From Enchytraeus crypticus (taxonomy: Eukaryota > Annelida > Clitellata > Enchytraeida > Enchytraeidae): a stretch of DNA of 64,000 nt. Every line of letters begins with the position of its first letter. The stretch's first letter is position 1. Positions 15,449 through 63,577 of the stretch are shown piece by piece. The stretch spans positions 259,501 through 323,500 of the forward strand of contig CAJHZI010000683.1 in assembly GCA_905160935.1 (NCBI GenBank). The letters are read 5' to 3'. The notes under the pieces were generated by a model that worked only from the letters and a program-made list of their open reading frames with translations, did no database searches and had not been told where the DNA came from. Both the position numbers and the translations under genes were made by a program.

Positions 15449-18400
15449 CTATTGTTTGAGATCCTCCTCTCGCTGTTGTGGTATGTCTGTCATGGCGGTG
15501 TTGGTGTGACCTCCAACTCGGCGAGGTGGAGTGACGTCAGCGCTGTCAGACTCTCCTGAGCGCAGCAGCTGGAACACTGTGTCTATGGCCCAGACCACCA
15601 TGCAGAAAAACGCGAATGCCTGGAATTATAACAACGTTTGAGTACATACTACAACAACAACAACATGCTGAAGAACGCGAATGCCTGGAATAATAACAAA
15701 GTTTAAGTAAATACAACGATGGCCAAACGTGGCTATCGTTGTTTTATGCTTCATTGCACAATGCATTTCCAGAATTCACTTAACTGACAATTATAGTTTT
15801 TATAGGTAGCTGCAGGTTCGGATGAAGGGATCCTAATGTTAAATCTCTAAACCTCATTTCGATACAAATTGCATTTAAATTGGCTGATAAAGTGTCTTGA
15901 TGGCACTACGTTCACGGATTAATTGGCGAAGGGTTCATATCCTGTATTCTCCCGTCACTGATATGCTATCGTACATAAAACTGACGCTAAACTTGGTGTT
16001 AGACCAAGCAACCTTTTGACTACATTATCTGTGAGATGAGCCCGCGGCACGTAGGTGTCCAGGCACGTAGAGTGAGTGAACACTGACGATCATATACTTG
16101 ATTCAAATCCAGCTTTCTTTCTTTTTCAGCTTAGCCACTGAGAGGCTTTCAATAAAGGAGAGTACCTATGAACTATATTCTAGCCACTTAGTCTTTAATC
16201 TTTATCTTCAAGATTCTGCTCTATTGACTTGCTTGCATTATAAACCACTGCATTATACTGTATATTTAGTCTAAGCTTAATTTATGAAGTCTAAGCCAAA
16301 TGTAACCTCATTGACATTATAAATATTATCGTGCAGCCTTCCAACCCGTACAATAGCTGTAGTACACCGACAGGACAATTCTGCTTGGCAGTCTTTTTTC
16401 TTGAATGTTAAATGTACATGTATAATGTTTAATTGAGTATAGCATGCAAACGCATCTGTACACCTTACAACAACTACATAAAGAAAACCAAGACACAATA
16501 GAATACGCAAAATAACATCACAAATACAAAAAAAATATCATCATCAAAACATCTAAAACCCAGAATCCGAAAGATATTTAAAGTAGATAAGATCACGGAA
16601 TTTAAGTATCGGTGAACAAGTATCATTTAACGTTTGTTTCTTCCTCCACGGCTGATGACAGAGCAAGAGAGGGGGTACTTACTGCGGCAGCTGCAGCGAC
16701 GCGATCCTTTTGAGAGCTGCAGTGCTTGTTGTGGTGAACTGCGCAGATGATGCCGGATATAGTGAAAGCGATTGTCCACAGAGCGTAGAAAAACTTCTCC
16801 TACAATCACAGTAGTCACATTGTTATTGAAAGGCATTAATATTGTTGAGCATTAATATTACTGTCGTACTGCGAACTGAGTGCATGTAGACACAAGGTTG
16901 ATCATCAACCAAGTAGTTAAGATTTCTTGACGGCTTGATTGCTCGATTGATAAAGTTAAATTCTTATTGATTGATTGATTGATTGATTAACCGTTTCATC
17001 AATTAAGCAACCTGTACTTAGATAACCGGCCGATCAACCGATCGATAGACTAACTGATTGTTTGATTGATTGCTCGATTGATATATTAGCCAATGGATCG
17101 ATTGATAGATTGGTCGATTGATCGATTGATTAATTGATTGACTGATTGAGCAACTGATTGCTTGGTCGATTGACCGATTGATTGATTGTTTGATCCACAG
17201 ATCGACTGATTGATCGATTGATTGATCGATTGATCGATTGACTAACTAATCGATTGATTGATTAACAGATCGATTGATCCAGTATCGATCGATTACTTGA
17301 TCTATTGATCGATTGATAGATCGATTGATCGATTTATCGATTGATTGCTTGATTGCTTGATCGATTGATTGATTGATTGATCGATTGATTGATTGATCGA
17401 TCGATGAATCGATTGATTGATTGATTTATCGACTGATTGATTGATTGATTGACTACCAGGTATCCAGGCCAGCCCCAGTTGCATTCCATGAGGAAGTGGA
17501 GAGAGAGGCAGATGAAAGCCTTGACGAAGCCGAATATTGCCACAAAGCTGGCGTAGGCGAATGTATCGTGACGCTTGCCGTAGGGCCGACACGTGTGATC
17601 TACAACGGCTACAGCCAGGCCGAAAGCCGTCCCTGACAACATCTAAAAATAGTCATTTTTACACTTAATACAGCATCGTCCCTCACAACATCTAGAACAC
17701 TCTTAAACAATCGTTTCAACACAAGGGTAATAATTGAAACAAGATTACGTTGAGCCTGCTTACAACATAAGGTGGCGCATATTACCCACAGGTAGCCTTT
17801 AGGCATCCAATAGGTATTATGCTATCTCATTATATTAGGTTACATACGCATGTAGGTTAGATCACTTTTCTTTAAAATAAAATGTCTAAACGACCGCAGC
17901 TTCGTGGAGCCTACCTTATAGACATATTCATCATCTTCCCTTAAATAGCAGTACATGGTCCGAAACTCTAGATACGAACAGACCTTCTCCAATCCTCTCT
18001 GTCCCACTCCATATCGTCGTCAATCTCCTATTTAAATTAATTTCTAGACATATTTTGTGGGATAAATGAAATTACCTGAATTATTCCACTGAAATATTTC
18101 TTCCCGACATGGCAACATCCCAATAACACTATACGATGAAGATTTAACTTCCATTTTCTCGCTAGTAGGCGATGTCAGGGACGTCTCAGGCCGAAATAAT
18201 AGCCTTAATTTACATTAATACTAGTAATAATAATAACGACAGTTAGAGTGCTACAGTCATCAATGATAACATAGAGTACTATTGAGACAAAATCAAGCTG
18301 GCGAGCAAAACGAAGGTCCAAAAACGGTGCAAATTCCAAAATCCAGGAAATCAGTCCAAAGTAAAGGAATTTAAAGAAAATGAGGTTTAGGCACTGGTCG

Positions 18401-18597
18401 CAACTCATGGACATTGAATGGAAAAGAGAGATGGAAAAGATAGATCTTTAACTGCCTATGCAACTGCTCATAGGAAAGTAAAGGCCGATGTGATTCAAAC
18501 GAAATAGTGCAGTACTAACCAGTTCAAATATCTTCATAAGACCGGGGACTGTCTTAAGATAACCAGACTGGGTCTTGCATCTTGCGTAGGAAGACAT
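15449..18597 (-). CDS. MARVEL-domain four-pass membrane protein (CMTM/plasmolipin-like)
   Basis: Four exons on the minus strand: 18520-18597, 17457-17642, 16683-16799 and 15449-15619 (stop TAG). All junctions are phase 0, giving 183 aa. The N-terminus is short and cytosolic (MSSYARCKTQSGYLKTVPGL). Predicted TM helices are near residues 24-42, 57-78, 90-108 and 122-144. The third and fourth (FFYALWTIAFTISGIICAV; AFAFFCMVVWAIDTVFQLL) match the MARVEL consensus of CMTM, MAL and plasmolipin proteins, which work in membrane apposition and vesicle trafficking. The polar C-tail ends in QQREEDLKQ. The exon-2 donor (CTG|GTAGTC) runs straight into a tetranucleotide array. The exon-4 acceptor region is duplicated in its own intron. 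Subfamily is not settled. Confidence 0.85.
15597..15708 (-). repeat. Duplicated splice acceptor of MARVEL gene exon 4
   Basis: The real exon start (minus strand CCAG|GCATTCGCGTTTTTCTGC) at 15598-15640 is repeated with few changes at 15664-15708, inside intron 3. About 22 exon bases and the AG are included. Confidence 0.8.
15897..16002 (+). mobile_element. Diverged SINE, family S1
   Basis: GAAGGGTTCATATCCTGTAT, then CCCGTCACTGATATGCTATC, then AAAACTGACGCTAAACTTGG. It lies in intron 3 of the MARVEL gene. Confidence 0.5.
16960..17456. repeat. (GATT/ATCG)n tetranucleotide array
   Basis: About 490 bases of ATTGATTGATCGATTG-type repeat fill most of intron 2 of the MARVEL gene and touch its 5' splice site directly. 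Confidence 0.95.
17928..18032 (+). mobile_element. Dispersed repeat S2, fragment
   Basis: CATCATCTTCCCTTAAATAG, then AGACCTTCTCCAATCCTCTC, then CATATCGTCGTCAATCTCCT. It is in intron 1 of the MARVEL gene. Confidence 0.55.
18215..18480. mobile_element. Dispersed non-coding repeat, family C
   Basis: Shares AGAGTGCTACAGTCATCAAT, then ATTGAGACAAAATCAAGCTG, GCGAGCAAAACGAAGGTCCA and AAACGGTGCAAATTCCAAAA with copies at 26735-26900, 43640-43925 (a head-to-head pair) and 52385-52505. No ORF; MITE-like or SINE-like. Confidence 0.6.
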
Positions 18598-18599
18598 GG

Positions 18600-20080
18600 T
18601 GAATTCCACTTACGTTTAAATAGTAAAGCTCTGATTTTAATACGGTTTCTGCTGTCTCAGACGATGTCAGCTGATTCACCCGGCGCTTTTCAATAAGATA
18701 ATTTTTAGTTAGTGCTATATAGCTAAAATGTTTAAATTATTTCATAGACTCTGTATTTGATTCAGTATTTGACGCAGTATTTGAAACTGCTTTCTGAAAT
18801 ACAAAAAACACGTTATATTAAATTTAAGACAGTTATCTAATTATAACCAGTCATTTGTTCATTGCTATATTTTATAATGTTGAACACCTTTAAGGTGCTA
18901 TATTATAAAATAGTAAAGCCTACATTCGATTTATTACTACATGTATGTTTATTTACAATACTTGTTATGCTTGTAACGAAGCTGCGTATTTTTAATCTTG
19001 CATAGGTTCTTTAGAAGCAGAATTTCAACAAATGACGCAAAAACCGTGATATAAAACTATCAAGTTCTATGCTACGAAGTTCGCAAAGACTGAGAAGTCA
19101 CATACAACAAAACGGCGTCGTACGCTCTCAAGATATACCAACACTGAAATAACTACAAATCTCAAGCTGCTTTTCACCCGCATCCATATATCAATCTCCA
19201 GTCCTTTCGTGCCGTAACAATGCCCGAGCCAGATTCAACCATTATAAACCAGTTCGTTCTGAATTCCATTGTAGAGTAGGCTGGGGGAGAGATAGCAATT
19301 AAATTTACAGTTTAATTATACGCGAATCGTATAATTGGATGGATTCCTAGGAACAACTATTAAGTGATAGCGTCAGAGGCGCTGCTAGCTATTGTGAGCT
19401 AGAGTTCAGGGGAGATTTTCGCTGATGATGCCTTTAACCTTCTAATGTTGGATACAATTTTAATTCTTGCGATAAATTTACATAATTTAACGATTGAAAC
19501 GCTTAGTTGAATTCAACTGAATTTATTTTATTGTTATTTATTATATTATAATTAATTTTATTATAATTTTTATGGCTTGACAATCACAGACCTTTACTGC
19601 AAGAGCTAAAAGACTCTTTCCGCCAAATGTCTAAATTTTGGCCCGTCACTTGCCTTTAATCTTTTTTGTTGGTATAGTTACACACATGACATACCATATG
19701 TGCTATATAGTTTCCTTTCTTAGTTGCTGTTTTTGTTGTTTTCGTTAATTCCTCCATTCCTCTCCTTGGTTATTAGAAATCGTTGCCTTTTGGACCTGCA
19801 CTGTTTTGATCTCGCTTTCTCTTGTGTTCTTTGTATACTCAGTCGTCATCGTGTGGTATTTTTGCGCCTGTTTGTGCAGGGTCTGCAAGAGACGACCCTG
19901 ACATTGCCTTATGGCGAGGAACGAGTCATTAAATTCTTACTGATTGATTGAGTGTTAGGATTTGAGACAAAATACCATATCATTGTATCGTTTAAAGAGG
20001 TACAGTATGCTGCATTATTGCATTGTATGCAGCTGTAGGATGTGCATTAGCAATGCACAGTGTGCAGACGTAGTTTATGC
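18600..20080. other. Gene-free stretch
   Basis: AT-rich with no supported exon. A short open frame near 19720-19950 ends in CTGATTGATTGAG and looks like a retroelement 3' tail with a GATT repeat, but I cannot confirm it. Confidence 0.4.
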
Positions 20081-20084
20081 AATG

Positions 20085-20450
20085 TTAGAGCATAGTATGC
20101 TGTAGTACGGTATATCATAGTATTCATGGTATGCAGTGTTGTGATATGCCGAGGTATAGCATAGTAGGTGGCAGAACGCTATACCATAGTACAGCATAGT
20201 ATGCAGCGGTACGATATGCCACAATACAGTATAATAAGTAGCGGTACAGTATGCCATAGTATAGCACAGCAAGTAGTGGTACGGTATGCCATAGGACGCC
20301 ATAGTAAGAATGGGATGCCATAGCACAGGATAGAAAGTAGCGGTATGTCATAGTAAAGCATAGTTAGTACGGTATACCATGGTACAGCATAGCAAGTATG
20401 GTATGTCATAGTAAAACATAGTAAGTAGCGGTATGTCTTAGTATTGCATA
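20085..20450. repeat. Degenerate 'GGTATGCCATAGTACAGCATAG' minisatellite
   Basis: Units of ~40 bases built from CATAGTA, AGCATAGTA and GTAGCGGTA words. The same unit recurs at 29505-29660 in a SEC13 intron, 9 kb away. Confidence 0.75.
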
Positions 20451-20459
20451 TAATTACAG

Positions 20460-21100
20460 CTCCAAGGTAATTTCGAGTCACGTCCAAGAGAGCAAATCAA
20501 ATCAAATCCCTACAAACTCTCGGCACTACGTTCATCAAATGCTGCATTCACGGGCAATAAAAGCGTCTACATGCGTAAAATAAAGATTCCGTGTACAACT
20601 GAACAATGCATACGTTTACCAATTCTAACGCTAAATGCATGGCTGGAATGAATCACAACAAAGTATACGACATCTATACATAGTATACGTAGCACTGCTA
20701 CAGTTATTATGCGCTAATTCTACGTTGGTCTCTCGTAACCGCTTGGGTATTTACGACCCCTGCAGTGCAACTGGTCACCAGCACGTGCTAATTACACCAG
20801 GGATCTGATCCTGCGTTGAACGGACGAGAGGGCATCGACTCTGAATAGAGGTCATTGGACAATCCTACAGCTCAAAGTTCAGCGTTAGTTTAGTGAGGCG
20901 TATGTCATATTACTCCGGTAGTCAATGACATACAAATACATGCATATTCTTGCAATATTTACACTGCTAAAGACAAAAACTTTCTTGAAATATTCTTTAC
21001 CGACGTCTGAATGAAATAATTGATAATTCTGGAATAACTGACGCCGCTATTAACTCATAATCGGCATCTTCCCTTGATTCCAAGTTTAACTAGGGAATTA
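20460..21100. other. Gene-free stretch
   Basis: Mixed-composition, apparently non-coding DNA. No repeat family shared with the rest of the window was recognised. Confidence 0.4.
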
Positions 21101-29388: not shown

Positions 29389-32300
29389 GTGTCGGTGATA
29401 AACACAGTGGATACAAGTCATGACGACATGATTGTAAGTATTGTAACCATGACGACATGATTGTAAGTAGTGTAACCATGACGACGTGATTGTAAGTACT
29501 GTATATAAGTATAGTATAGTAAGTACTGTATATAAGTATAGTATAGTAAGTAGCGTTATGGTATGCCTTAGCATAACATAGTAAGTAGTGGTATGATGTG
29601 TCATAGCACAGCATAGTAAGTAGAAGTATGGTATGCCACAGTATAGCATAGTCAGTAACTGTAGTGTATCCATAAATACTGTACATTAGCAGACTATTTA
29701 TTAAATATTTAAAACAGTCTATAATTAATATAAAACAGTCATTATTTATGACAGTTTATGACAGTATGGCACGCAGATTGACTATGATTTATGACTGTTT
29801 ATGACAGCATGACACACAGCAAGACTATGTTTATGACTGTTTATGACAGCATGACACACAGCTAGACTATGTCTATGACAGCATGACGCACAGCTAGACC
29901 ATGTTTATGACTGTTTATGACAGCATGACGCACAGCTAGACTATGTTTGTGACTGTTTATGACAGCATGACGCACAGCTAGACTATGATTTATGACTGTT
30001 TATGACAGCATGACGCACAGCTAGACTATGACTTATGACTGTTTATGACTGTTTATGAGAGGATGACGCACAGCTAGACTAAGATTTCTGACTGTTTATG
30101 ACAGCATGATGCACAGATAGACTAAGATTTATGACTGTTTATGATAGCATGACGCACAGATTGGCTATGATTTATGCCTGTTTATGACAGCATGACGCAA
30201 AGATTGACTATGATTTATGCCTGTTTATGATATCATGACACACAGATTGGCTATTATTTATGTCTGTTTATGACAGCATGACGCTGAGATTGACTATGAT
30301 TTATGACTGTTTATGACAGCATGACGCACAGCTAGACTACTATGGCACACGGATGGCCACCTGCTCCTCTGACAGATCTGTGAAGATATTTGACGTGAAG
30401 ACGGCTCAACACATACTGCTCGCTGATCTGAGGGGGTGAGAAATTCTCGTGTTTTCTCTTCTTAGCCAGCGAGCCTAACTGTCTGCCATGTGTGGCTAAA
30501 TCACTGGCTGTGTTGTCAGTCTGTTTCATTCTAGCAGACTTCTATGGCCATGACTTTACGTGAGACTAAATTATATGTATTATATCTTTGTCACTGACAT
30601 TGCTTTTGAGTGAGGAAACTGACGTTAACCTTAGCTTTACCAGCTTTATATTGGTGCCATAAATAGCAAAGATTTGGTTAATCATCGAGAGGATTGACTA
30701 GTAACCTTACGGGAACCTGCAAAGCGGTTTCGAAGACCGTTCACTTATGTTGACCTATGTGATGACCCATGTGTAGTCACGTTTGATGACCTATGTGACA
30801 CCTATGTGATGACCTGTGATGACTTACGTGTATAATAACCTATATGATCACATGTGACACCTATGTGATGACCTACATGTAGGCACGTATGATGTCCTAT
30901 ACGATGACCTATGTGTAGGCACGTTTGATGACCTATGTGATGATCTATGTGATGACCTACGTGTAGTCACGTTTGATGACCTATGTGATGACCTATGTGA
31001 TGACCTACGTGTAGGCACTTATTATGACCTATGTGATGACCTACGTGTAGGCACGATGGACCGGTGTGGCAGTTGGCCTGGGCTCACCCGATGTACGGCA
31101 GCATCCTAGCGACGTGTGGCTACGACAAGAAAGTCATCGTGTGGAAAGAAACGGGAGGAAACTGGGCGAAACTCTACGAGCACAGTTATCACGAGTCATC
31201 AGGTGACATTTAAATGTAGCACAGTTATAATTGTAGCACAGTTATCACGAGTCATCCGGTGACAATTAAATGTAGCACAGTTATCATGAGTCATCAGGTG
31301 ACAATTAAATGTAGCACGACTTTGCTACAACATTCAGACATTCACTGGACTGGCTATACGGAAAATGGACTAAATTGCCTAACGGTTTAAACATGTGGTA
31401 CTAAAAAGTGATAGATGTCAACATAGTTGATCAGTTCACTATAATGCGTGTTTACTTTTTAGGTTCATGAATCAATTGTCAATGGTTTAGGTGTTGCATC
31501 TAAATTTGCTTCCGATTTAACTTTAATTAAACTGCATTCTTTCCTTGCTAAGTCTTCTAAACGATGAGTCTTACCTAGAGATTCTAAATTGATCTGTTCT
31601 AATTGTTTGCTTCCTATTTGCTATATTAAGTGGGTTCAGCAGAGTTGTCTTTTTCTATTTTTAAACCTCTAAATAATATTCCCACACTTTCTAACATTTA
31701 TCTACATTTATAGCAGAATTTCCTTATTTGTTTTTGTCATCAGATTTCATTGCTATTTTTTGTCTTTTTTATGTTTCTTTTAAACTTGATGATGCAGTTT
31801 TACTATGTCATTTAATCATAGATATTTGATGACAAAGATAATGTAGATGCGTGTATGTATATATTTGATGAAAAAGATGACGTAGATGTGTGTATGTAAA
31901 TATTTGAATGACAATGGTAACCTGGATGTGTGTATGTGGCTGCAGTTAACTCAGTGTGCTGGGCGCCCTATGAGTACGGCCTGATACTGGCAAGTGGTAG
32001 CTCTGATGGCTCCATCATTCTACTCTCTAGCACTGGTTTGTATGCCACTGTTTAATTGTGTCATAATATAAATACAATCATTCAAACGTATCTACTAATG
32101 TAAATACAATCATTCAAACGTATCTACTAATGTAAATACAATCATTCAAACGTATCTACTAATGTAAATACAATCATTCAAACGTATCCACTAATGTAAA
32201 TACAATCATTCAAACGTATCTACTAATGTAAATACAATCATTCAAACGTATCTACTAATGTAAATACAATCATTCAAACGTATCTACTAATGTAAATAAA

Positions 32301-35300
32301 ATTAATTTTTAAAGATTTTGGATGATTGTATCAACTTGCAGGTAAAAAAATATATACTAGGGTTTCTATCTGATGATGATGAAATATCATTGCTTGTATA
32401 AACTTTCGTAATCTCTTATGACGTTTTCTTGCTGTTGCATTATGATAATCTGCCTGAAAATATTTGTATTGGATACTGTCCAAGTCTGTTTAATTCATGC
32501 TTGAATTTAAATTAGCTTACCTGATAAAGGAAAGTTTGATTTTGTAGATTTTAATTTTGTTTTAAAAAAGGTGCTATTTTAATTTAATTTTTTTAATGCA
32601 TCGTATAAATTCTGCTGCTGCTTGCAGGTACTGGTGTTTGGGAAACCAACAGAATAACTGCTGCCCATTCTGTATGTACTAGTGATTGAATCTATCTATT
32701 AATTAATTAATTAGAGTATTGAATCGATCAATTAACTAATTAATTAATTAAAATATTTAATACACCAATTAATTAATTAATTAATTAAAGTATTGCATCC
32801 ATCAATTAACTAATTAATTAAAGTATAAATTAACTGTCTTATGTATTTTGAAAGAATACGTTAAAGAATGGTAATTAAACTACTAAAATGTTCGTGCACA
32901 GAGCTTATTTATATTACACTTTGCACTTGCACACTTGATGGCTTGTGTGGTCAATATGAAGATATGATGAAAGATAAATATGAAAAGATAAAAGAAATTG
33001 TGAAGGAACAGATAAACAAATCTGTTGTCATGGTTCATTTTGATAAAAACATTTTTACTGGACAGCGGTTACTGTCGTATAATATCGGACACCGATTAGT
33101 TTATTTACTTATTGATTAGTTGCCCATTTTGCTTTATTTAGTGCTCGGCTGATTGACTGGTTGACGAATTGATGGATGGATTGGTTGATGGATTGATTGA
33201 TTGATTGATTCATGGATTGATTGACGAATTGATTGATTCATGGATTGATTGATTAACGGCTGGATTGATTGATTGGTGGTTTGATTTCAGAGTGGCTGTA
33301 ACGCGGTGAGCTGGGCCCCGGCTATTCAGCCATCAGTATCAGCGGGCGGAGACGACACGTCTAAACTCTCAGCCAAGCGTCTCGTCTCCGGGGGCTGCGA
33401 CAATCTCGTCAAGATCTGGAGGCAAGTCATTCCACGCTGCTAAATTACTGTCTGCCATTATCATTAATTAATAATAATAATAGTAACCTCTGACAATTTC
33501 TTATAGCGGTGTCATGGCTGGTGTACGGTCTTCTAAACCGCTTTACAGGTTCCTGGCAGGTTATTATTAATCCTTTTCCATGGTTAATCATATCTTTGGT
33601 ATTGATAGCGCCAATCGGTGGCGAGCTCTGATACAAGAATAACCTTCCATGGGCCCAAGGGGATATCCATCATTATTATTAGTTAATTATTTTCTACTTC
33701 ACATAATGTGCTTATAAGCCCTAATCTAGTTCCCACAACGAACTTTTTGCGCGTTAAGGTATTTCATATAACTTGCATCTAAAGTTTAATCTATTTTACT
33801 TGACAAAATCCAAGCGTTGGTTAGATCTTTTAAGCTTTAATCTATTTTTAAAAAGAGAAAAGAAAGAAAGGACATTCAGAAATTCGGACATTACGGATGT
33901 CAGAAAGGGCATTCGGTTAGTGAGCGCCTAGACTCCAGAAATTGCTACAAAAATTTAAACGAATGGAAAAGTCTCAAATAGGAGATTGGCTGATGATATG
34001 ATGTAGGACAGAGAGGATTTCAGGCAGTCTATTCGTTTCCTGACCCTAGTTAAACTGGGATTCAAGGGAAAATAATTGATTGGCTAATTCATTGACGTGA
34101 CTGATTGATTAAGAGAGTGAGTGATTAATTAGTTATTGATGGATTGACTAATGAACAGGGAGAACGGAGGGGAGTGGATGGAGGAGCAGAAGTTGGAGGC
34201 TCACTCCGATTGGGTGCGTGACGTCGCCTGGGCTCCATCTGGTGGACTCTTCAGAAGTGTCATAGCTAGCTGCTCTCAGGTGTGTACGCTATCCGTTTAG
34301 CAGAGTATTGAAGCGGTTTTATAAGGCTCTCAGCATACCTAAACCACTTTTTAGACTCTCTCGAAATGCTCAAAGAAATGATCCAATTAATTACGTTTAA
34401 AATCTTGTAATTGTTACTCTGGTAATATGGCAGCACAACCTGAAGAGACACAAAAGTTAAGTGAAAATCATGTAAAAATCTCTGTAGTGGCTGGATGGCT
34501 GAATGGATAACATGCTTGCCGGAGAATTAGGAGGTCGTCGTTTGAATCTCATCTGCCCAGTCTCTGATAATATCCATTTTGATACGTAAACTGACATCAA
34601 ACTTATCTTTTTGTAGCATTTTTTACGTAATAGAAGTAATTGTATGTATAGTTGCATTTTTCACCTAATAGAAATTTGTCACCAATAGTTTGTCACATTT
34701 GTCTCCTAGTTAGAACTAGTGCTAAAATTCTGCTGATATTGTAAAGCCCTCATAAGACTCGTATATGCGTTTATTACAGTTGATATCAGTTCTAAGTGCT
34801 CAGTGTTACAGTTGATTTCAGTTCTAAGTGCTCTGTGTTGTTGTGGATGTGTAACAGGACAAGCAGGTGTTCATATGGATGAACGATGGGACAGGAGCCG
34901 GGTGGACCTCAAAGCTCTTGCATGGCTTCCCTGATGTGGTCTGGCATCTCAGCTGGTCCGTCACTGGCAACATACTAGCAGTGTCCAGCGGTGACAACAA
35001 GGTACGCCATTAGTTCTGTATTACTGAGGAAGACAATGGGAAATTACCTTAAGAGTCACTGGTAACATACTAGCAGTGTCCAGCGGTGATCACCAACAAG
35101 GTACGCCATTAGTTCTGTATTACTGAGGAAGACAATGGGAAATTACCTTAAGAGTCACTGGTAACATACTGGCATTGTCCAGCGGTGACAACAAGGTACA
35201 CCATTAGTTCTGTATTACTGAGGAAGACAATGAGAAATTACCTTAAGAGCCGTGTTTTATGGTTACAGTTACCTGTGTGCTGATAGTTATTATGTAAGCC

Positions 35301-46703: not shown

Positions 46704-49700
46704 ATATATATATATATATATAGCATAAAGCGGCTACATTTAAAGCGTCTACATTTACAGCGGCTACATTATTTAAAGCGGCTACATTTAAAGCAGCTAC
46801 ATATAAAGCTGCTACATTTAAAGATGCTACATTTAAAGCGGCTACATTTAAAGCGGCTACATTTAGAGCGGCTACATTTAAAGTGGCTACATTTATAGCG
46901 GCTACAATTAAAGCGGCTACATTTATAGCGGCTACATTTAAAGCGGATACATTTAAAGCGGCTACAGACCTCCTGCGCTCAGCGTCCTGGGTGTCAGTGC
47001 CTGGGAGGCTGATGAGGAGGGGGGCGGGGGTGGATTCAAACCTGCGCGAGGCCTGCTTCTTGCAGAGCTTGACCTTGACCAGCAACGAGAAGAGCGTGTT
47101 AGAGAGGACGGCAACCACGGGCTGAGCCACGTCTGGGAAGAAACTGTCACAACAATACAAGAGCATCGTATATACCACTCCTGATGTAAACTGGTACAGC
47201 AGAACAATTTAATTTTAGTTCAAGTTTAGTTTAGTATCATTTATTTGAGCCACGTCTGGGAAGAAACTGGTACAACAATACTAATTAACCATTAAGAACC
47301 ATGTGCGTACAAGACAATCCACGATTCTTCGTCTTTTAGTGCACTGCCTAACGGCAGGTTCACGGCAAAATTACTTTTCCAACCAATTCTATCCTCACCC
47401 TTCCTTTTTCAAATATGAAAACAATATTACAATATTAGTAATATAACTAATAATATAATAACTAACTCGTACAACGATACAATTTAATTTTAGTTCAATT
47501 TTAGTTTAGTATCATTTCATTTATTTGTTCATCACAGCACAGATTATAGAAACAATAGGAACGTGCATGTAGTTAGATAAACAAATAACAATACAAGAGC
47601 AATGTATATACCACTCCTTAGCAGTCACTGAGGAATAGACCAACCTGTACTGCACGTGAAATGAGAGATGCTAGGGAAGAAAAGATGACAGCAAACTGGA
47701 ATCAGAAGTAGCATATAACTCAAGCTGGAGGTTACATGTAAGTGTGATTAAGACAAGCCCGTTAGTAACGAGATTAACTTGTTAACCGATGGAGTGCACT
47801 TTAAGGAGCATAAAAGAAGACGGTGATTAGGAATACGTAGAAAGCATATAGAAGTATTACTACTCAAGTTTAAACAGACAGACAACTGTCAGTTACTACA
47901 CCGTTTATGGCATTATACCACCAGGCTACTTGACCTTCAAATTCCATTCTGCGCTCTTGTGGCATTATACCACCAGGCTACTTGACCTTCAATTTCCATT
48001 ATGCGCTCTTGTGGCATTATACCACCAGGCTACTTGACCTTCAATTTCCATTCTGCGCTATTGTGGCATTATACCACCAGGCTACTTGACCTTCAATTTC
48101 CATTCTGCGCTATTGTGGCATTATACCACCAGGCTACTTGACCTTCAATTTCCATTCTGCACTATTGTGGCATTATACCACCAGGCTACTTGACCTTCAA
48201 TTTCCATTCTGCACTATTGTGGCATTATACCACCAGGCTACTTGACCTTCAATTTCCATTCTGCACTATTGTGGCATTATACCACCAGGCTACTTGACCT
48301 TCAATTTCCATTCTGCACTATTGTGGCATTATACCACCAGGCTACTTGACCTTCAATTTCCATTCTGCACTATTGTGGCATTATACCACCAGGCTACTTG
48401 ACCTTCAATTTCCATTCTGCACTATTGTGGCATTTAGCATAGAGTGGCGCTTTATAAATATCCTTAATATAACTATTATATAATAAACAAATATATTAAT
48501 AGACAATAATTAATAATAATGACGCAGTAGAACAAGATCAACAGATAATCAAATCGCACAATATGGTGCGTAATAAAAACCCATATAAATTTCAATTTTT
48601 CATTTTCTAGTATGCAGAACAATAAGTACATACTACGTAATCAAACCAAATAAAAGTAAATACAAAAACAATTCATTAACTGAGATATACACCGTTCAAA
48701 CAAATTATGTAATAAGATTAGATAACTAACCTTGCAAATGAGAAACTGTCCGCCATATCTCCGATATTTCCGTTGCTATGACGCTGGTAGAACCTCAGAT
48801 ATATCCAGCTGACCACCAAACCCCACGCAAACATGACTGGGAACGGGGGGTCCACTCCACCCACCAGTCGAACCAATATGGCCGCTAGCAGGACCCAGAG
48901 GGGGACGTGGCGGTTGCGGAGCTTGCCGAACGGAGAATTAACGAGAACGTGGTCGGACATGGATTGTTTGACGGCCACGGAAAATGCTGCGAGGTATCCC
49001 GCTAACCCGTGAACATGCTGCCTGCGTGTTAAGCGTAGAGATGTTATAGTAGATTATATACATTATTATACATATTATAGTAGATTATATATTACTATAC
49101 ATGTTATAATAGATTATATATATATTACTATACATATTATAGTAGATTATACATTATTATACATATTATAGTAGACTATATATAACTATACATATTATAG
49201 TAGATTATACATTATTATACATATTATAGTAGACCATATATAACTATACATATTATAGTAGATTATACATGATTATACATATTATAGTAGAATGTGCGTA
49301 GAGATAAAACAAAATAAAGCAATTTTAAGACAAATCTAAAGTCAGTTTCCACTTCGAGATCATCTTCAGAAGGGCGACAGAGTATTTGAACTCTATACTT
49401 TCTGATTCACAATCTGAGCACTAGACGACACGTTACGTCTCAGATTAGAAATTATTCCTTTGAATCCCAGTTTAACTAGGGTCACGAAATGCGTTAAATT
49501 ATATCTATCTCAGATTACAAATTATTCATTGGTATAAATGTAAAAAACATATTATAAACCAAATAGACGAAATTTAAAATCACTTAATATAGAAGTATAA
49601 ATTCCTTTGTTCTCAACAAACTGCACAATGGCAACATATTTTAAAGTGAAGACGGTATAATTATTACATACAGACTCATACTAAATAATAACATTTTCGG

Positions 49701-51695
49701 CAAATTAATAATGACTACAACCTATAATAATTTCAATCCTTGAGGAGTTTAATAAATCAGAGCAAGAGAATATTAAAATCGCTGCTTAAATATAAATTTG
49801 AGAACATCCTATAGTACCCAATCAAGAGCAGTACTATCAAATATATCAATAACCAGGGTTCCTGCAGTTTAACTAGATTAAGTTTCATTAATTAAGGGAC
49901 TCAGAACAGAGATAGTCGATGGAACGTACTTGAAGAGATAGTCCGTGTTATCGGTGATGAAATAAACGAGTAGATAAGTGAGGGCAGTCAGGAATCCTAT
50001 GCTGACGTTAACTATGGCATAGAATCGAAGCATTTCCAAGGCTCCCCATAGAGGTTCCAGCAGCTTACCATACAGTATGACAACGATTAGATCACAAATA
50101 ACCATCCACCAGTGAACCTAACACATCAAAACAACATACACCAGTGAACCTAACACATCAAAACAACATACACCAGTGAACCTAACACATCAAAACAACA
50201 TCCACCAGTGAACCTAACACATCAAAACAACATACACCAGTGAACCTAACACATCAAAACAACATACACCAGTGTACCTAACACATCAAAACAACATCCA
50301 CCAGTGAACCTAACACATCAAAACACATGCACCAGTGAACCTACCACATCAAAACAACATACACCAGTGAACCTAGCGCATCAAAACAACATACACCAGT
50401 GAACCTAACGCATCAAAACAACATACACCAGTGAACCTAACGCATCAAAACATACACCAGTGAACCTAACGCATCAAAACAACATACACCAGTGAATCTA
50501 ACACATCAAAACAACATACACCAGTAAACCTAACACATCAAATCAACATCCACCAGTGAACCTAACACATCAAAACAACATCCACCAGTGAACCCAACAC
50601 AGCAATACAATTTATCTCTAGCAGCAAATCATTACATCTCAGTACAAGTCCAGTTCTTCATTCCAATACTTATGAGGACTTAGTACTTCAAAACACAAGT
50701 AACAGCAACCACAGGAATCCTAACATTTCAAAACACATTCAAATTCTAAAAAATAGTAATATTACTTCGAAAGTAGTTTCCCAATACCTTCATCAGTCTT
50801 AAACCTAGATTTAGCTTCAAACACCAGATCTTATAAGGAATTTTATTTATATTTATGTTACTTAAATTCATATTTATATAATATAGTTTTATTTGCCAAT
50901 ATTTTTCTAAAACGAATGGAAGAGATTCTGATAAGGTATGTGATAGAAAGGAGTGGAGAAGGTGTAATCGTATCCCGACCCTAATTAAACTTGAATTAAA
51001 GGGAAGATGATGAATCTAGTTTTTTTTTTTTTTTTTCAAGATGTATAATTAATTTCAGGTTTAAAATGTAAAATTAATAAACTGTATCCTCCTTGCACAA
51101 AAAAGTATATTCAGGACTTAAGTCCATCTGTATATTTGAAATCTAACTGCATTTTTAACTGAGACATAATAAAACACTCTCCTCAGCAAATGATGGGAGC
51201 ATCCCAGACTGACATCATCCTTGGATGAGGAAACAGACATTAAACCTTTATTATAGTAATAATATAATAATAATAATTATTATTATTATTATAGCTTATA
51301 CATGGAAATGATATATCAGAGTTAGCACTAAAAAAATCAAGAAATACATTAAAATATCAAAACCACATTTAGGCTACCTCAATGAGACTGTATGTGGCGC
51401 AAGTCCACACCCAGAAGTTCGGCGGAAGAAGGTTACCCGGTAGAATAGCGAGAACATCAACAGCCTGCGAGCTGAAAGAAATAAAATATCCGAGAACAAC
51501 CGCCACGCAGATAAACTTAACAATGAGAGAAGAACTGCCCAGGACTGAGGATGCCTGCGTACGAAGGAATGTTAGCTGCGATGCGTCAATGTGATAAGTG
51601 TTGCCCTGCTGAGCAGAAACCCTCGATAGAAGAGGGTCATATTGTGCTGAAAAAGCCTCAGTGTCAGGCCGCTGCGGATTCCGAAATCCAGACAT
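46052..51695 (-). CDS. TMEM115: TMEM115, Golgi rhomboid-like transmembrane protein
   Basis: Five exons on the minus strand: 51378-51695, 49930-50117, 48731-49021, 46970-47143 and 46052-46259 (TGA), giving 392 aa with matching phases (0, 2, 2, 2). It aligns along its length with vertebrate TMEM115: PGNLLPPNFWVWTCATYSLI, GKLLEPLWGALEMLRFYAIV, VVSWIYLRFYQRHS, GDMADSFSFA, FFPDVAQPVVAVLSNTLFSL, LLISLPGTDTQDAERRR and QLALKALNERL. It is a rhomboid-superfamily protein without protease residues, multi-pass and Golgi-resident, linked in the literature to retrograde transport. The N-terminus is ~45 residues longer than in vertebrates and the C-tail is Ala/Val-rich. NEDD1 starts 1.5 kb away, divergently. 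Two acceptors (exons 2 and 4) are duplicated into their introns. Confidence 0.95.
46270..46405 (-). mobile_element. SINE S4, 3' part, in TMEM115 intron 4
   Basis: GTGAAATGATCAACTATGAT, then AACCATTAGGCAATTATTCC, then CCAGTGAATGTCCGAGAATT. It is followed at 46415-46500 by a LINE tail piece. Confidence 0.6.
46625..46724. repeat. (TA)n microsatellite
   Basis: TA dinucleotides with a few GATA/TCTA interruptions, forming a near-palindrome in TMEM115 intron 4. Confidence 0.95.
46725..46969. repeat. 15-bp array at the TMEM115 exon-4 donor
   Basis: About 16 copies of AAAGCGGCTACATTT (minus strand GTAGCCGCTTTAAAT), starting within a few bases of the 5' splice site AGGAG|GTCTGT. Because 15 is a multiple of three, the exon-4 frame stays open through the array (NVAAL repeats). 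Confidence 0.9.
47122..47285 (-). repeat. Duplicated TMEM115 exon-4 splice acceptor
   Basis: GAGCCACGTCTGGGAAGAAA plus CTG(T/G) occurs at the real acceptor (47124-47148) and again at 47249-47273 in the intron. About 20 exon bases and the CAG are included. Linker sequence (ACAATTTAATTTTAGTTCAA) recurs again at 47475-47520, so the duplicated block is longer and has been interrupted by a LINE tail. Confidence 0.85.
47905..48435. repeat. 52-bp minisatellite in TMEM115 intron 3
   Basis: About ten nearly identical units of GGCATTATACCACCAGGCTA, then CTTGACCTTCAATTTCCATT, then CTGCACTATTGT. Left units differ (GCGCTCTTGT) and right units are homogeneous, the usual sign of recent spread from one end. 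Confidence 0.95.
49040..49295. repeat. ATTATACATATTATAGTAGATTAT tandem repeat
   Basis: About eight imperfect units of 20-30 bases, TMEM115 intron 2. Confidence 0.9.
50103..50603 (-). repeat. 32-bp array built from the TMEM115 exon-2 acceptor
   Basis: About 16 copies of minus-strand TTTTGATGTGTTAG|GTTCAC followed by TGGTG and ATGTTG. The first on this strand is the true splice site (GTTCACTGGTGGATGG, encoding VHWWM). Every copy has the TTAG acceptor and 11-15 exon bases. Confidence 0.95.
50900..51015 (-). mobile_element. Dispersed repeat S2, fragment
   Basis: AACGAATGGAAGAGATTCTG, TATCCCGACCCTAATTAAAC and AAAGGGAAGATGATGA, in TMEM115 intron 1. A poly-T run follows at 51020-51037. Confidence 0.55.
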
Positions 51696-53217: not shown

Positions 53218-56200
53218 ATGAGTGATGAACAGTTTGGTGTGATGCTGGTCTCTGGTGGGGACACGTTAAGTATTTGGGATGGGGAAGTGGGTTACACTCG
53301 ACTTAAACAGTTTAACCCCCACTCTGCCCCAATCTCAAACTTCTGTTGGGCTCGAGACGACTCGGTATTATTCTAGTTTTCATGGATTTATTAGTTCTGT
53401 TACTCAATCAATTAATGAGAATTTAACTTGTGATTTCTCGCCAAAAGGCAATGTCAGTTTCGAGCAGACTTTGCATAATAATGTTCATTTTCTTGCCAAA
53501 GACTGTTTAGAGAATGTTTAAAAATTAATGAATTGCCATTCTGTATTACCACAAATATTTGTACAATTTTCATGATTAAGCACTGTAGTTCATTGTTGAT
53601 TTTATGATAAAGTTTCACCTTCCATATTTATAATGAAAAAGTCTTTGACTAAGATTTGAAACTAAGTGATGTAAAGATTTAAAACTAAAGATTAACTCTA
53701 AAGACTAAAATTTCTAGCTCTATGTTCAATGCAGAGATTTAAGACTAAAGATATAGATTTGAAAGTGCATGGTATCACTATTTAGATTATTGCAAGTGCT
53801 TCGACCTGCGGAGATAAGATTCACATCACATCATGCGCAGACCAGTCGCAAGATTTCTCACTGGCGCAAAAGGTTAAAAGATTTCTCTCTAAGATTACGT
53901 TTATTACGATATGAATCATATTATATAGTAAGATTACTTCACATCATATACACTTTTCTCTCACTTTCTCACAGCAGGTCCAAGGTTCAAATTCATAATA
54001 GAGTCTGCTTTAACTCTGCATAAGGAGCGCACTATAGATCAACAGGTCTTTTCACGAAGGTTTATGCCTTATCCATACCTTTGTAGCCTATACCCGGTCA
54101 CCTGATGCGATTACCCAGATCACGACCTGGTGATCACATGACAAAACTCTTCCACTTTACTCCATCAAGTGGCTGATCTTTGAGAGCAGGAGCTCCAGTC
54201 CGATTATTAAATGAAAACTATTCCGAATAGGAATATTTTTTTTTTTTTTTTTTTTCTTGGCAGGCACTGAGGTAGTTTGTCATTTGTTCTCCAAATTTTC
54301 AGCTCAGGTTATCTCTCAGTAGCAGAGCCTCCTTAGCTGCTTTGGTATTCAAAAGACCTAGCCCCCTACAACTTGGTCACGAGATGAGTGACATAGCTTT
54401 GGAAAATTATTGCTTCTGAGATGGTTTCCCATTGATTTCCTCTGTGCTGGCTTAGTAGCCTTTTACAACACGTGCAGTAAATGGTTATTCCATTCTTCAG
54501 TGTCCCCTAAACAGTAAATAAATGTCTTTTGCTCCTTAATCTCTAACTAAATCTTGATTGTTAGTATATTTACAGTATTTACCTCATTAATTTTGTTTTA
54601 AAGGAAGATTTTTTGTTTTCATATCCTGTTTTCTCATCATGTATCCTGTGGTCATGTATCCATTTCTTGCTTCAGTTCTTACTTCTCTACCGTTGATGTT
54701 TCGATTGAACAAGAATTGAAACAACTGAATCTAAATTTCTCGGTCATCCGTTTAATTGTGCATATCAAATATTATAAAATTGTCATTAAAAAATTATAAT
54801 CATTAAAATTTAATAAAATTATGAAATCAAATTAAATTGTGTTTTATGCATAGATTGATATGACATGCTTGGCTGTATGTAGATTGTATTTTTATGGTGG
54901 CAGTATGTAGATTGTGCATTCATTTGTAGATGGAGAAAACCTGCGTTGCAGTGTGCTCACATGCTGTATGTAGATTGTACATTCACTTGTAGATGGGGAA
55001 AACCTGTGTTACAGTGTGCTCCCAGGCGAGGAATGTAATGGCGGGGGGTGCCGATGGTTCAATTCACATCTGGGACCTTAGGTCCAGTAAACTAAAGAAA
55101 ACTATTCAGGTTATTTATTTACTATGTGTAGCAGTAGCAGTGTATAGATAATTACTATATTACTATAATACTATGTTTGGGTAAACAGGATTATTTTCTC
55201 GGAGAATGATGCCCCTGCCCAGTAAATGTTAGTCAAAGCTGAGGAAGGCATGAGGGCCCACCTCCTCATAAGCAGAATCCCCAAGAATAATGGTATATCA
55301 AAAGGAATGTTATAGATGATTTAAAGACCCACTCATTTGTGGACATGAAGAGGAAAAAAGAAGATAGAGATGATTGGAGGCATTATATACCATGGACCTG
55401 CCAGTTGGCAGTGCACTAAGAGATAGAGAGAGAGAGATATTACTATATACTAGATGGATTACTGCATTACTATATTACTTTATACTACTGTATTGTATTA
55501 AGTTATATTGTATTACTGTATTGTGATGCACTACAGTAATGTATTTTTTGTTTTTTATTGCTGCTGTTATTGTTTCACTAACAGGATCTTAGCAGTTCGG
55601 TTAGCAGCGTTGCGTTTAACTGTAACGACAGTCTTATAGCTGCGGGTTCAACCACCGGTGAGCTTTACATCGGCAACCTCGTCACTGGCCAGAAGTCTAA
55701 CGTAATCGGTTCAACTAACGGACAGGTAACACTTGCCCAGTCTCACTAAAAAATCTCTGCTACCGTGCTTGTTATATTTAAAGAATTCCGTAAAGATTGA
55801 ACCATATATTGACCACATATTTAACCCGTTTTGAAGCGGTTTGCCGGAGAATAGGCCAACCGTGAACTGCATCTGAAGCACTAAGATCCAAACCAAAATC
55901 AGAAAGGGCTTTCAGTTGGTGTGTGCCTTGAAGTATTGAATATATGGCTGTTGCCAATTTAGAATAGAATATGTTTCTGGCATTACTTCAGTATAACTTA
56001 TAATTAATTTAAAATTTTATTAGAAATCGTTATATCTGTTTTTATATCGTTATAAGTGTCTCCATCCCGACTCTACCTTTGTTCGGGTGTATAATTATAA
56101 AATAGCTACATAATTATAAACTATAATTATAATTATTTTTAAATTAATAAAATAACTAATATACGTATATGTAATGTAAGAATAAGTACAACCTTTGTTC

Positions 56201-59200
56201 AGGTGTATAATTATAATATAACTGCATAATTATGAGCTGTATCTATTTTTTATCATAATTATATAATGTAAGAATAAGCACAACCTTTGTTCATGTGTAT
56301 AATTATAATATAATTACTTAATTATAAACTATAATTATTTACTATTATCAATAAAAGAACTAATAATTATATAGTTAAAGAACAAGTATAGCTCTCTATG
56401 GCTTGTATTACAGGCTATACGTCAGGTGCGGTACAGTAGGGTGAAGAAGACGGTGCTGGGCCACGTCGATGACTCAGGAGCCGTGTGTATATGGGACGCT
56501 GGAGCCAGAGTGTTGACTCAGAGGTACGAGTCATCACACAAGTCTGCTGCCACAGGTCTCTCGTTCTCCCCCCTCAATCACATGTTGACGATGAGCATAG
56601 GCCTCGATAAGACCGTCGTTTGCTACGATATAACCAGCAAAAAGTGAGGCTTTCTGTCTCTTTCTCTCTCTCTATCTGTCTGTCTCTCTGTCTATCTCTC
56701 TCTATCTTTCTATTCAACATTTAACTTTAATCTTCTTTTACGCATTAATTGACTTCTTTTATAGGTTTACGTCTGCTATTTCTTTTTATCTGTATGGTTA
56801 AAGCCAAGACTAAAGCCAAGTTTAATGGTAAGTATCTTTGGACAGATTTTTTGGATATTAGATGTGGTTCAACCTTTTAGTTTTTTTGCTATTTGACTTG
56901 GCTTTGATTACATGGTGCTCATTGTTGTCTTTGAGGAGAGTTGTACAACTACTGTTATTGTTGTTTTCGTTTCTCTAATTGCTGTTGTTTTTACTCTAAA
57001 TTACGTTGTTTTGATGTAATTGCTGTTGGTTTTCCTCTAATTGTTGTTATGACTTAAATTGTTGTTGTTATTCTAATTGTTGTTGTTGTTGTAGGATATT
57101 AAAGACGCTGCAGTCTGACGCACCTCTCACCGCTATTGATTTTCTGCACGATGGCGCCACACTGGTCGTGGGCACTGCGCGAGGTCACATACACGTCTAT
57201 GATCTGCGCAGCTTCACTGCACCGCTGCGCACGATTCACGCGCAGAAATCTCCAGTCGTCTGCGTCCAGTACCGATTGAACTCTGGACCCACGTCTGCTG
57301 CTAGGGTCTGATTTACAACTCTCTGTCTAGCGTTGTTGTTGCTTTGTTGTTGCGTTGTTGTTGCTTTGTTGTTGTTTTGTTGTTGCTTTGTCGTTGCTTC
57401 ATATATGTGTAGCGCAGTACTGCTGTTTAAAGCAAAAGTAAAGCTAATGTTAACGTCAGGTTTCTCACTCGAAAGCGATGTCAGTGACGGGCGAGCCCAG
57501 GATTTGAACCCCGCACAATACTGATCCACAGTCGAATATCTTACCGACATCGCTAGTAGGATGTTTAGCGCCGTTCTGCTGTTTATGGCACTTCATCTGA
57601 GGTGGATTTTAGTATTAGTTTTAACCGATGAGGTCACTTGAGACTACTAACTACCCACCCGTGTGTTGTACTAGAGGTTTCTATTATGCGTGATATAGTT
57701 CTGAAATATTCAGTTTTATGATCCATCTTCATATGGTTAGAACCACAGGTATGTATTTTCATTGCAGTACATAGCGACTTAAACAATACATGAAAACCAT
57801 CGCAATATATTTTAATATTCATTTTCTTTCTATTTTGTCGTTGAACTAATCAAACGTGCTGTTATTCTGTGAATGGAGATTTGGGTAACCCCAGTATGAA
57901 GCAATACTCTACGATTGTCTCTTATAGCAGCTTACACGTAATGGTCTATTCGTATAATTAATTAATTATCATCAGCATTAATTTAATTATCTATTTATTT
58001 AATTATCCTTCATTTGATTTAATTACTGATTGCTGTTGTAGCTGAACGGCATCTTATCGGAGAAGCCCGTTGTGTCACGAACAGATCTGAGCTCAGCCGG
58101 TGAGCCGGCGGTGTATCAGCAGTCGTCTACTGAGCCGGTTTATCAGAACTCTTCGTCCTTGCTCGAGCCAGCTGCTCAACGCTATTCTAATGACTCGATG
58201 TTGTCCACTAAGAGCTTCTATAACGGTTAGTCTTGTTATAGTAGAGATCTTATTGCTCTATCACTATTCTAAGAATCAGTTCTGTTATACCAGTTAACAT
58301 CTTTTATATCGGTTAGTCTTGTTAATAAGCAAATTTTCATTTATTAGTTCTGTTCTATTGTGTAATTATAATCTATTATTGAATATAATCTATTAGTCTA
58401 GCAGAACTACTATATATTTGATGTTGCACGTTTTTTAAGTAATTCATTGGATGCACATAGAAGCTCCACTTTAACCCTATTACACATGTATCGTTATGTG
58501 TGATTATGTGTTGTAGCATATGGACAGAAGTCACATGATCCACACAGCAGCAATATTTCCAGTCTGTCCTATGCTAGTTTCTCGACCAATCAGGGGCGTG
58601 ATGACAATTCTAACTATCAGCCGAGGAGCACGCTGGATATAAGTGAAATATTCTCTCCTGTCAGAGAGGGTGAGTGGGGAGGGGAGGGGGTGTTATTTGT
58701 TTAACTAGTAGAATTATTATAATGTATTATGTCGGTAAGATATCCGACTGCGGATCAGTATGTGTACGTTTCAAATCCTGGGCTCGCCCATCATTGATAT
58801 CGCTCTCGAAAGATAAAGTAAATAATAGTAATTATCAAGATAGTCTAATGTAAAATTCTCACTATGCTTGCTGTATATTGATATAGTATAATTATTATTA
58901 TTAATATTGTACTGATTGCTAGATATTAGTGGCGTGAACCAGGTCGCTGGTTTGATGCTGTCTACGGGAGTCCATGCTGCTGACAAGGGCACAGGTTATT
59001 CCAATGTCACAGGCTATTCGACTGGGACTGCTATCTCTCCGCCTACTGCGACGAGTACGTCTTCTAACTTTAGTGAATCTAGGACTAATCTGTCACTAAT
59101 GTGCCTTTACTGAGTTATTGTGTGTTACTGAGGTGCTGAATGTTAGGCTCGTCTTTCGCATTTAGAACATTTGGGCAGATGCAATAAATCTTAACAGATA

Positions 59201-61069: not shown

Positions 61070-61084
61070 TTCTATTTGTAATGT

Positions 61085-62147: not shown

Positions 62148-63577
62148 TTATATAACAATCTCAAAGTCGGCCAGTTCCTCCTCTGAGGGGAGTATGATCT
62201 TATCCTGACTGATGAGGTCAGGGTCAATCAGCGGCAGACCTTTCCTCTCCCTCCTCTCCAGCTCCAGGTAAGCCTCCCGCTGGGCCCACGACCTGTCCCT
62301 AGACAACAACAACAACAACAAGGTTAAACAACAACAACGAGGTTAAACAACAAGCAAACAACCTGTCCCTAAACAACAACAATAATAACGAGGTTATACA
62401 ACAACAAACCCACGACCTGTCCCTAAACAACAACAACAACACAGTTAAACAGCAACAATAACAACACATGTGAAAACAACTTCAGTCTATAAGTGTATCA
62501 TCAGCTCCTTAATCTAAGCAAGACAAATAACATCAGCTTCTTATAACAGAAGCAATAGAATAATGGCCATTAAATTTCCAGGCAGTTTTAAACAATTGGA
62601 CGAACACTTTTGAAATGGTAATCACAGTTATATAAAAAGTCAAAATAGGTAATTTATATATAATGGGAGCCTTAAGACTAAAGTTCAACGAAAATTTGCA
62701 ATAGAGATACAACCTCCATTTTCTAACACAAAATAACTTCAATACATCTCAAATGAAATGCACAAATACACGCAGAAAATTTATAAACACAATGAATAAA
62801 CTAAGTTATATCCATGACATTTAACTCTCTGATAGATGAGCTTGAGTAATGAAAAATTGCTGAAGAAAATCTGAAATATGTAACACATGTAGACTTTGCA
62901 TCAGTGAGAAATAGTCAATCAAATCTTTAATTTTGTCATTTTTAGTTTAAAATATTTTTACGGCTTGGTCTTTAAGATATTTTTACAGATGCACTTTAGC
63001 CGATGCAACAAGTCTGGTATTTAATCACTGGATTTCATCATTATAGTTTTATACCTCGGTTGAGTAAACCGGTACACAGCTCAATATTATTTATCAATAG
63101 CCTATGGGTAACAGAATAGATCTGGAGAGAGCTCTGCAAGCTGGAGGCACGTATGCAAGTTGTTCACCAGTGAAGCAGTTCATGCATGTTGCCAATTCAG
63201 TGCTCTCACTAAATCAAACAGGAAGTCGCCTTTAAACTTGGCTTTAGCCTTAGTTGATGGGCAGAAAATATCTTAACATCACTCAGGCAATGCCACAGAG
63301 TTAATTAACTTAGGTCAGATATTAATTAATCAGTATAAGTTCGAGTACCACATATAAATGCACCTTATCATCGCTGACTACTCGTAAAATGTATAAATAT
63401 TGAAGAGCAGGGAATTGGAAAGTTAGTAGTTCTAAATGAGAACCTCGACGACGGCATGTAAGCGAGAAGAAATCCACCCCAGCAGAGCAGGACAGTAACA
63501 CCAAAGAACATGAGCAAGTGGTGCGCCCACTCGTCCTCATCTCTGTCGACCAAGCTGTAGCCGAAACTTATCCAGTT
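62148..63577 (-). CDS. NDUFB11: NDUFB11 (complex I ESSS subunit), C-terminal two exons
   Basis: Two exons on the minus strand: 63444-63577 and 62148-62298 (TAA), joined in phase 2, encoding the last 94 residues. The 5' exon(s) with the mitochondrial targeting region lie beyond the window. The single TM helix is HLLMFFGVTVLLCWGGFLLA, preceded by NWISFGYSLVDRDEDEW. The conserved tail is WAQREAYLELERRE, KGLPLIDPDLIS and KIILPSEEEL. This is an accessory subunit of the membrane arm of NADH:ubiquinone oxidoreductase. NEDD1 is convergent, with stops about 1.1 kb apart. The acceptor of the last exon is copied twice in its intron. Confidence 0.92.
62285..62430 (-). repeat. Triplicated NDUFB11 last-exon acceptor in a CAA-rich tract
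   Basis: The real site (plus strand CCCACGACCTGTCCCTAGAC at 62285-62304) is echoed at 62359-62378 (ACAACCTGTCCCTAAACAAC) and 62409-62428 (CCCACGACCTGTCCCTAAAC). Each copy holds the TAG acceptor and 9-14 exon bases, linked by (CAA)n and GAGGTTA. Confidence 0.85.
62440..63440. other. NDUFB11 intron
   Basis: AT-rich; no further exon or clear repeat family recognised. Confidence 0.5.

Follow-up and report, generated by a model that had tools for sequence, protein, structure and literature searches.

Tandem repeats that extend over exon-intron boundaries have been described in amphioxus, where they are called mirages and occur in the Adh3 and globin genes; in parts of that report, reverse transcription PCR (RT-PCR) suggests that regular splicing is undisturbed, the copy number varies between haplotypes and a model of intron gain is proposed (PMC3087553). 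Related events are discussed in sections of a potato study, which describe an intron of the RdRp gene that was gained when an intron-exon segment was duplicated in tandem, and the model of Rogers, in which an exonic segment containing AGGT is duplicated (PMC4974935). Here we analyse a 64,000-nucleotide stretch of contig CAJHZI010000683.1 of the Enchytraeus crypticus assembly (positions 259,501 to 323,500; hereafter the window), in which splice junctions are repeatedly copied in tandem into their own introns, together with genes sampled from the remainder of the genome (524,188,772 bases in 802 contigs).

As far as can be read from the DNA, these annelid arrays are of the mirage kind: the unit spans the boundary, AG or GT is mostly kept, and the period (median 53.5 base pairs (bp), range 18-124 bp, in 42 acceptor-spanning arrays) lies within the mirage range of ~10-160 bp. 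The exon models are open, and regular splicing may be preserved. The amphioxus arrays, as far as that report describes them (PMC3087553), likewise consist of boundary-spanning tandem units of tens of bp to ~160 bp, retain the functional boundary, can lie at 5' and 3' boundaries and carry AG or GT in many but not all copies, with a likeness of 81-100% in BflGb6 compared with a median of 93% here. In contrast, a few lancelet genes are concerned there, whereas in this clitellate annelid about one in five sampled acceptors is duplicated, with a 4.5-fold bias towards acceptors. The potato case, as presented in those sections (PMC4974935), differs in that a cryptic donor gave rise to a new intron and to one additional exon, whereas here the copies lie inside an old intron and the model exons are unchanged. 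The Rogers model, taken from the same source, shares the tandem duplication that copies splice dinucleotides, but here no intron is created and part of the unit is intronic. Intron gain by duplication of AGGT was rejected, as the copies sit in existing introns and exon middles were copied in 0/102 cases. In passages of an earthworm genome report, minisatellites make up 2.65% of the genome and boundary repeats are unmentioned (PMC12130307). In the parts of the open-licence literature covered, among which no search was aimed at annelid mirages, we found no report of mirages outside amphioxus or of a genome-wide rate, leaving aside isolated examples like that in potato. Thus, the kind of structure, which a first-pass annotation of the window did not know to be described on this scale, was already known, and what is new here is its occurrence in this phylum, how often it occurs and its bias towards acceptors.

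Six host genes were modelled in the window, namely a MARVEL gene, SEC13, a thioredoxin gene, TMEM115, NEDD1 and NDUFB11, in which 33 acceptors and 31 donors could be placed. The SEC13, NEDD1, TMEM115 and NDUFB11 models combine alignments to human protein sequences with reading of the sequence, and those of the MARVEL and thioredoxin genes combine a coding-potential scan with such reading; exon 1 is not placed in SEC13 or in NDUFB11. All placed exons have open frames with 0 internal stops, and Pfam domains (MARVEL, DUF1751 in TMEM115, ESSS in NDUFB11, thioredoxin) confirm models. Our own spliced aligner reproduced 8/8 SEC13 and 4/4 TMEM115 introns, but because it erred in NDUFB11 and where NEDD1 is poorly conserved, these two models rest on reading. 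One SEC13 intron is of the GC-AG type (window 33421-33423); the remaining 30 placed donors are GT.

A junction was counted as duplicated when a copy with an intact splice dinucleotide and at least 5 exon bases lay no more than 500 bp into the adjoining intron. By this uniform rule, 13 of the 64 junctions (20.3%) are duplicated, 4 donors and 9 acceptors, and the copied exon part measures 5 to 42 bases. The first-pass annotation had listed eleven such junctions in five of six genes among about 64 placed, with some 5-42 exon bases copied, and these figures stand: it did not give coordinates case by case, but all eleven are matched by gene and number (six in SEC13, two in TMEM115 and one each in NEDD1, NDUFB11 and the MARVEL gene), together with two weaker ones, a NEDD1 donor and a MARVEL acceptor, and the thioredoxin gene alone has 0 duplicated junctions. 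Its division into three donors and eight acceptors was reproduced by gene and number, all three donors being in SEC13, although the uniform rule brings the totals to 4 and 9. Its statement that the copy attached to the intact exon is the functional one also holds, and the arrays span junctions and recur in unlinked genes.

That the copies reflect chance similarity, mis-placed exons or an assembly artefact is most improbable. Dinucleotide-preserving shuffles of the introns gave 0/640 cases with any junction reaching score 12, under a scoring looser than the final rule that admitted simple repeats at three junctions with a mismatched dinucleotide; the window copies are therefore not chance similarity. 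In addition, the exons of SEC13, TMEM115, NEDD1 and NDUFB11 match human proteins, the MARVEL and thioredoxin genes match Pfam domains, and the same pattern is seen in unlinked loci, the contigs of which measure 0.3 to 4 megabases. In favour of such a reading are the weak calls at the MARVEL acceptor (17642) and the NEDD1 donor (58225), and CCT8, where one copy lies 387 bp off; a few matches are indeed distant single copies and not strict tandem repeats.

Loci outside the window were chosen for their protein matches, without prior sight of their introns, and comprise nine from a six-protein search, nine of the chaperonin family and four of the loci listed for the AAA family. These 22 loci yielded 202 aligned introns (67 + 103 + 32), of which 183 in 20 loci pass a local-similarity filter on both sides; ENO_c and one AAA locus (L038) have no good intron, and the dropped introns include two duplicated junctions in ENO_a, a donor at residue 270 and an acceptor at residue 316. 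Duplication was found at 10/59 acceptors and 2/59 donors of the six-protein set, at 30/159 and 5/159 once the chaperonins are added, and at 6/24 and 1/24 in the AAA genes, giving 36/183 acceptors against 6/183 donors over all outside introns (Fisher p = 7e-7). With the window included, 45/214 acceptors and 10/214 donors are duplicated, and introns with an acceptor match only outnumber those with a donor match only by 41 to 6 (p = 2e-7). Acceptor matches exceed donor matches in 17 of 26 genes, with 9 ties and no gene showing the reverse, and a bootstrap over genes places the acceptor rate at 0.147-0.282 and the donor rate at 0.019-0.083 (95% limits). Some genes have no duplicated junction, for example RACK1 (0/5) and CCT6 (0/11). 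We also note a chaperonin-like match at C373:1699388-1700899 with a single open frame of 554 residues, and two loci with identical scores and 894-residue open frames (C259:219813-222410 and C400:245545-248142), which may have arisen by recent duplication or represent two haplotypes.

The same asymmetry appears without the dinucleotide rule when 40 bases from each end of 169 exons (60-400 bp long, with good alignment on both sides) are compared with up to 600 bp of the flanking introns. Exon starts recur in the upstream intron in 25 cases and exon ends in the downstream intron in 5, while exon starts downstream, exon ends upstream and reversed copies each number 0. AG also precedes the copied exon piece in 24/25 upstream exon-start copies. 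The side, the strand and the lack of copied exon middles together indicate that the copies are local, directed and of DNA origin. RNA-templated copying of exons was rejected, as the copies mostly hold the intron sequence before the AG and none is reversed or on the wrong side.

The arrays are concentrated at the edges of introns. In 190 introns, array right ends reach 2.6-8.4 per kilobase per intron between -30 and +50 of acceptors, compared with 0.45-0.85 deeper in the intron, and left ends reach 2.6-4.2 in the first 30 intron bases past donors, where the exon is reached less often. The last 150 bp of introns without an acceptor match contain 9-14% repeats, compared with 4-11% after donors without a match; since unmatched introns are only slightly richer at their 3' end, most of the 3' repeat richness represents the acceptor arrays themselves. 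These arrays have a median of 4.9 copies, compared with 2.7 for interior arrays, and a median length of 309 bp (37 measured). The introns bearing them are longer, as had been claimed, with a median of 923 bp (n = 45) compared with 638 bp for those without an acceptor match (n = 169). The position of the acceptor within the unit is not fixed, the exon part divided by the period having quartiles of 0.20, 0.45 and 0.65 (n = 48). Three MAT2A paralogs with shared intron positions carry matches at residue 317, at residues 30, 183 and 256, and at residue 56, respectively; these are five different positions, and the matches therefore have separate origins. Three further candidates were rejected. GC-rich exon edges are not the cause (GC 0.303 in interior arrays, 0.332 in introns), recursive splicing at AG|GT finds only a weak difference in GT-starting exons (11/45 with and 27/169 without an acceptor match), and the best shift is divisible by three in 19/45, not clearly above the one third expected if periods did not keep the frame.

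Among acceptor copies of at least 75% likeness at 43 junctions, 127/143 retain the AG, and 18/19 donor copies retain the GT. The AG of acceptor copies mismatches at 7.3%, compared with 10.6% in the adjacent intron sequence and 9.3% in the adjacent exon sequence. The decay of the AG is thus near-neutral, with nothing to suggest that selection favours or opposes the copies, although its retention is slightly biased because the array call required one copy with AG. That selection retains extra 3' splice sites, or UG-rich tracts, as recruiters of splicing factors to the exon would fit the acceptor bias, the higher copy number at acceptors and the UG-rich acceptor regions; we consider it improbable, given that the AG in copies changes at about the rate of adjacent positions and that 169/214 acceptors carry no copy.

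How far the junctions stand out depends on the background, which was taken from anchors in intron interiors. Under a generous null, an interior anchor counts when a copy lies on one given side within 500 bp; under a strict null, the copy must lie on that side only, the one-sided figure being used because a junction occupies the last unit of its own array. In the window, 16.6% and 17.1% of interior anchors have a copy on the given side and 4.5% and 5.1% on that side only; outside, the figures are 11.2% for a left-hand and 12.7% for a right-hand copy, and 3.1% and 4.5% when it lies on one side only. The first-pass annotation had proposed a mutational process that starts tandem duplication at splice junctions, and had named as its refutation a junction rate no higher than that of exon-interior or random intronic anchors. 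Exon middles were copied in 0/102 cases. The junction rate does not exceed that of random intron anchors: pooled junctions (55/428, 12.9%) show no excess over the 12.0% and 13.3% given by the generous null. Moreover, since donors are not favoured (10/214), the process is not one of splice junctions in general.

Arrays are commoner in TG-rich sequence. The last 30 bases of the 214 introns are UG-rich, unlike a plain pyrimidine tract, with TG making up 15-20% of dinucleotides compared with 8% in interiors. Interior anchors bear arrays in 9% of cases at a TG+GT content below 0.2, in 17% at 0.2-0.4 and in 53% above 0.4. When the generous null is matched for TG, acceptors show no clear excess (45 seen, 42.9 expected) and donors fall short (10 seen, 30.3 expected, p = 1e-5), as do outside donors without matching (6/183, p = 1e-5).

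These observations point to minisatellites of the mirage type whose growth within introns is halted by exons, selection removing copies of donors but tolerating those of acceptors, a reading to which we give about an even chance. Local tandem duplications fill the introns of this annelid, above all in TG-rich sequence. Arrays would grow within introns and halt at exons, so that their ends gather at intron ends, where they are observed. Where the unit includes an acceptor, the last copy is joined to the whole exon, a correct mRNA is still possible and the copy may be harmless. Where it includes a donor, an extra downstream donor would compete with the real one and the allele would usually be lost, as the donor deficit suggests. 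The outcome would be that acceptor arrays outnumber donor arrays, that introns become ~300 bp longer and that acceptor copies decay without visible selection. Reed and Maniatis reportedly made laboratory pre-mRNAs with duplicated splice sites in which identical sites compete, which serves here as a lead only.

Several results weigh against this tolerance reading. Without TG matching, outside acceptors (36/183) exceed even the generous null (p = 0.0006), and under the strict null with TG matched acceptors show a fivefold excess (45 seen, 9.1 expected) while donors agree with it (10 seen, 10.5 expected), such that a purging of donors is visible only under the generous null. At a TG content of at least 0.2, 43/153 acceptors are matched, whereas comparable interior AGs have a left-hand copy in 338/2125 cases, 88 of them one-sided; this comparison matches TG more coarsely than the test that gave 42.9 expected. 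The 98 interior arrays predict 5.8 spanning arrays for each end type, but 48 acceptors and 10 donors are spanned, and among arrays of at least 2.6 copies 37 extend over an acceptor where 1.7 would be expected. Two-copy duplications extend over acceptors 11 times against 4.1, and the excess thus lies mainly in many-copy arrays. Furthermore, the generous null is a coverage null, inflated because acceptor-spanning arrays are counted in it; the strict null, for its part, disregards the outward growth of arrays, and the true background probably lies between the two.

The excess over the strict null, in many-copy and in two-copy arrays alike, would also be expected if duplication or later expansion began preferentially at 3' splice sites, which may be brought about by TG-rich sequence ahead of the exon or by pausing of the polymerase there. 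The best lead towards such seeding is the dependence on TG in the last 30 intron bases, matches being found at 2/61 acceptors below 0.2 and 43/153 at or above it, and at 2/49 and 43/131 within array-bearing genes. We nevertheless regard acceptor seeding as doubtful, as array ends are enriched on the intron side of donors too, breakpoints have no fixed place relative to the acceptor, TG-rich interiors are also array-rich and TG matching abolishes the excess under the coverage null. With a signal that is acceptor-specific in introns that are array-rich, duplication may therefore start at junctions but need not do so, acceptor seeding being the earlier proposal restricted to acceptors. As a tentative statement, acceptors, unlike donors, could breed arrays by way of mutation or expansion linked to TG-rich 3' splice sites, with about one in five acceptors duplicated in parallel to the lancelet mirages and providing a standing source of intron growth and new-intron material.

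The duplicated junctions of the window are listed below.

Duplicated splice junctions of the window under the uniform rule (window positions)
Feature	Positions	Strand	Description
SEC13 donor array	29419..29503	+	~3 copies, 29 bp, 15 exon bases; functional donor after 29433
SEC13 acceptor array	29744..30339	+	~14 copies, 43 bp, up to 20 exon bases; functional exon start 30320
SEC13 acceptor array	30751..31055	+	12/48 bp units, 5 exon bases; functional exon start 31051
SEC13 donor array	31179..31317	+	39/56 bp units, 24 exon bases; functional donor after 31202
SEC13 donor array	34960..35249	+	3 copies, 95 bp, up to 42 exon bases; functional donor after 35001
SEC13 acceptor array	35751..36056	+	38/69/107 bp units, ~11 exon bases; functional exon start 36044
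TMEM115 acceptor array	50103..50610	-	16 copies, 32 bp, 15 exon bases; functional exon start 50117
TMEM115 acceptor and copy 123 bp off	47123..47281	-	21 exon bases; functional exon start 47143, copy 47266
NEDD1 acceptor, duplicated	54903..55021	+	63 bp unit, 29 exon bases; functional exon start 54993
NEDD1 donor (at 58225) and copy 86 bp off	58215..58324	+	11 exon bases; weak, score 18
NDUFB11 acceptor array	62285..62458	-	51-70 bp units, 8-14 exon bases; functional exon start 62298
MARVEL gene acceptor and copy 65 bp off	15599..15714	-	21 exon bases; functional exon start 15619
MARVEL gene acceptor (at 17642) and copy 49 bp off	17628..17694	-	15 exon bases; weakest, score 15

Other arrays of the window approach junctions and exclude them. 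Two start a few bases inside a donor, in TMEM115 (46726-46966, 15 bp units) and in the MARVEL gene (17055-17452, TGAT units), and comparable arrays stop just short of some SEC13 and NEDD1 acceptors. An intergenic minisatellite at 20154-20450 has units that are alike by eye to those at 29538-29657 in a SEC13 intron; with window 20000-21000 as query, 96 further matches of 64-89% identity were found over approximately the first 460 bases, and this minisatellite is therefore dispersed as well as tandem. The left end of the window (1-9130) is occupied by a Polinton/Maverick-like element with a double-jelly-roll capsid-like protein (3920-5305), an integrase core (686-1501) and other small open reading frames, including one on the opposite strand (8705-9130); no relative of the capsid-like protein was found among viral contigs.

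The mitochondrial sequence indicates that the host most probably belongs to the clitellate annelids and not to the lancelets. In COX1 on contig C802, compared with the human protein, TGA falls at Trp in 13/15 cases, ATA at Met in 12/20, AGA at Ser or Gly in 8/11 and AAA at Lys in 5/8. The closest named sequences among the best 120 matches are Mesenchytraeus cf. pedatus (93%), Lumbriculus variegatus (93%) and Enchytraeidae (92%), followed by earthworms. A lancelet (cephalochordate) host is thus argued against by the mitochondrial code and COX1, without direct comparison with lancelet sequence.

Tandem acceptor copies leave strings of look-alike splice sites in introns. If the rate of about one in five acceptors holds genome-wide, which is an extrapolation, this annelid would offer a very large natural set of duplicated acceptors, a ready test of spliceosomal choice among near-identical sites and of why donors differ from acceptors in this respect, and intron lengthening would be seen in progress. 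Boundary duplications are also material for intron gain, as proposed in amphioxus and described in potato. The presence of mirages in an annelid suggests either an old bilaterian origin or a repeated origin wherever minisatellites are common.

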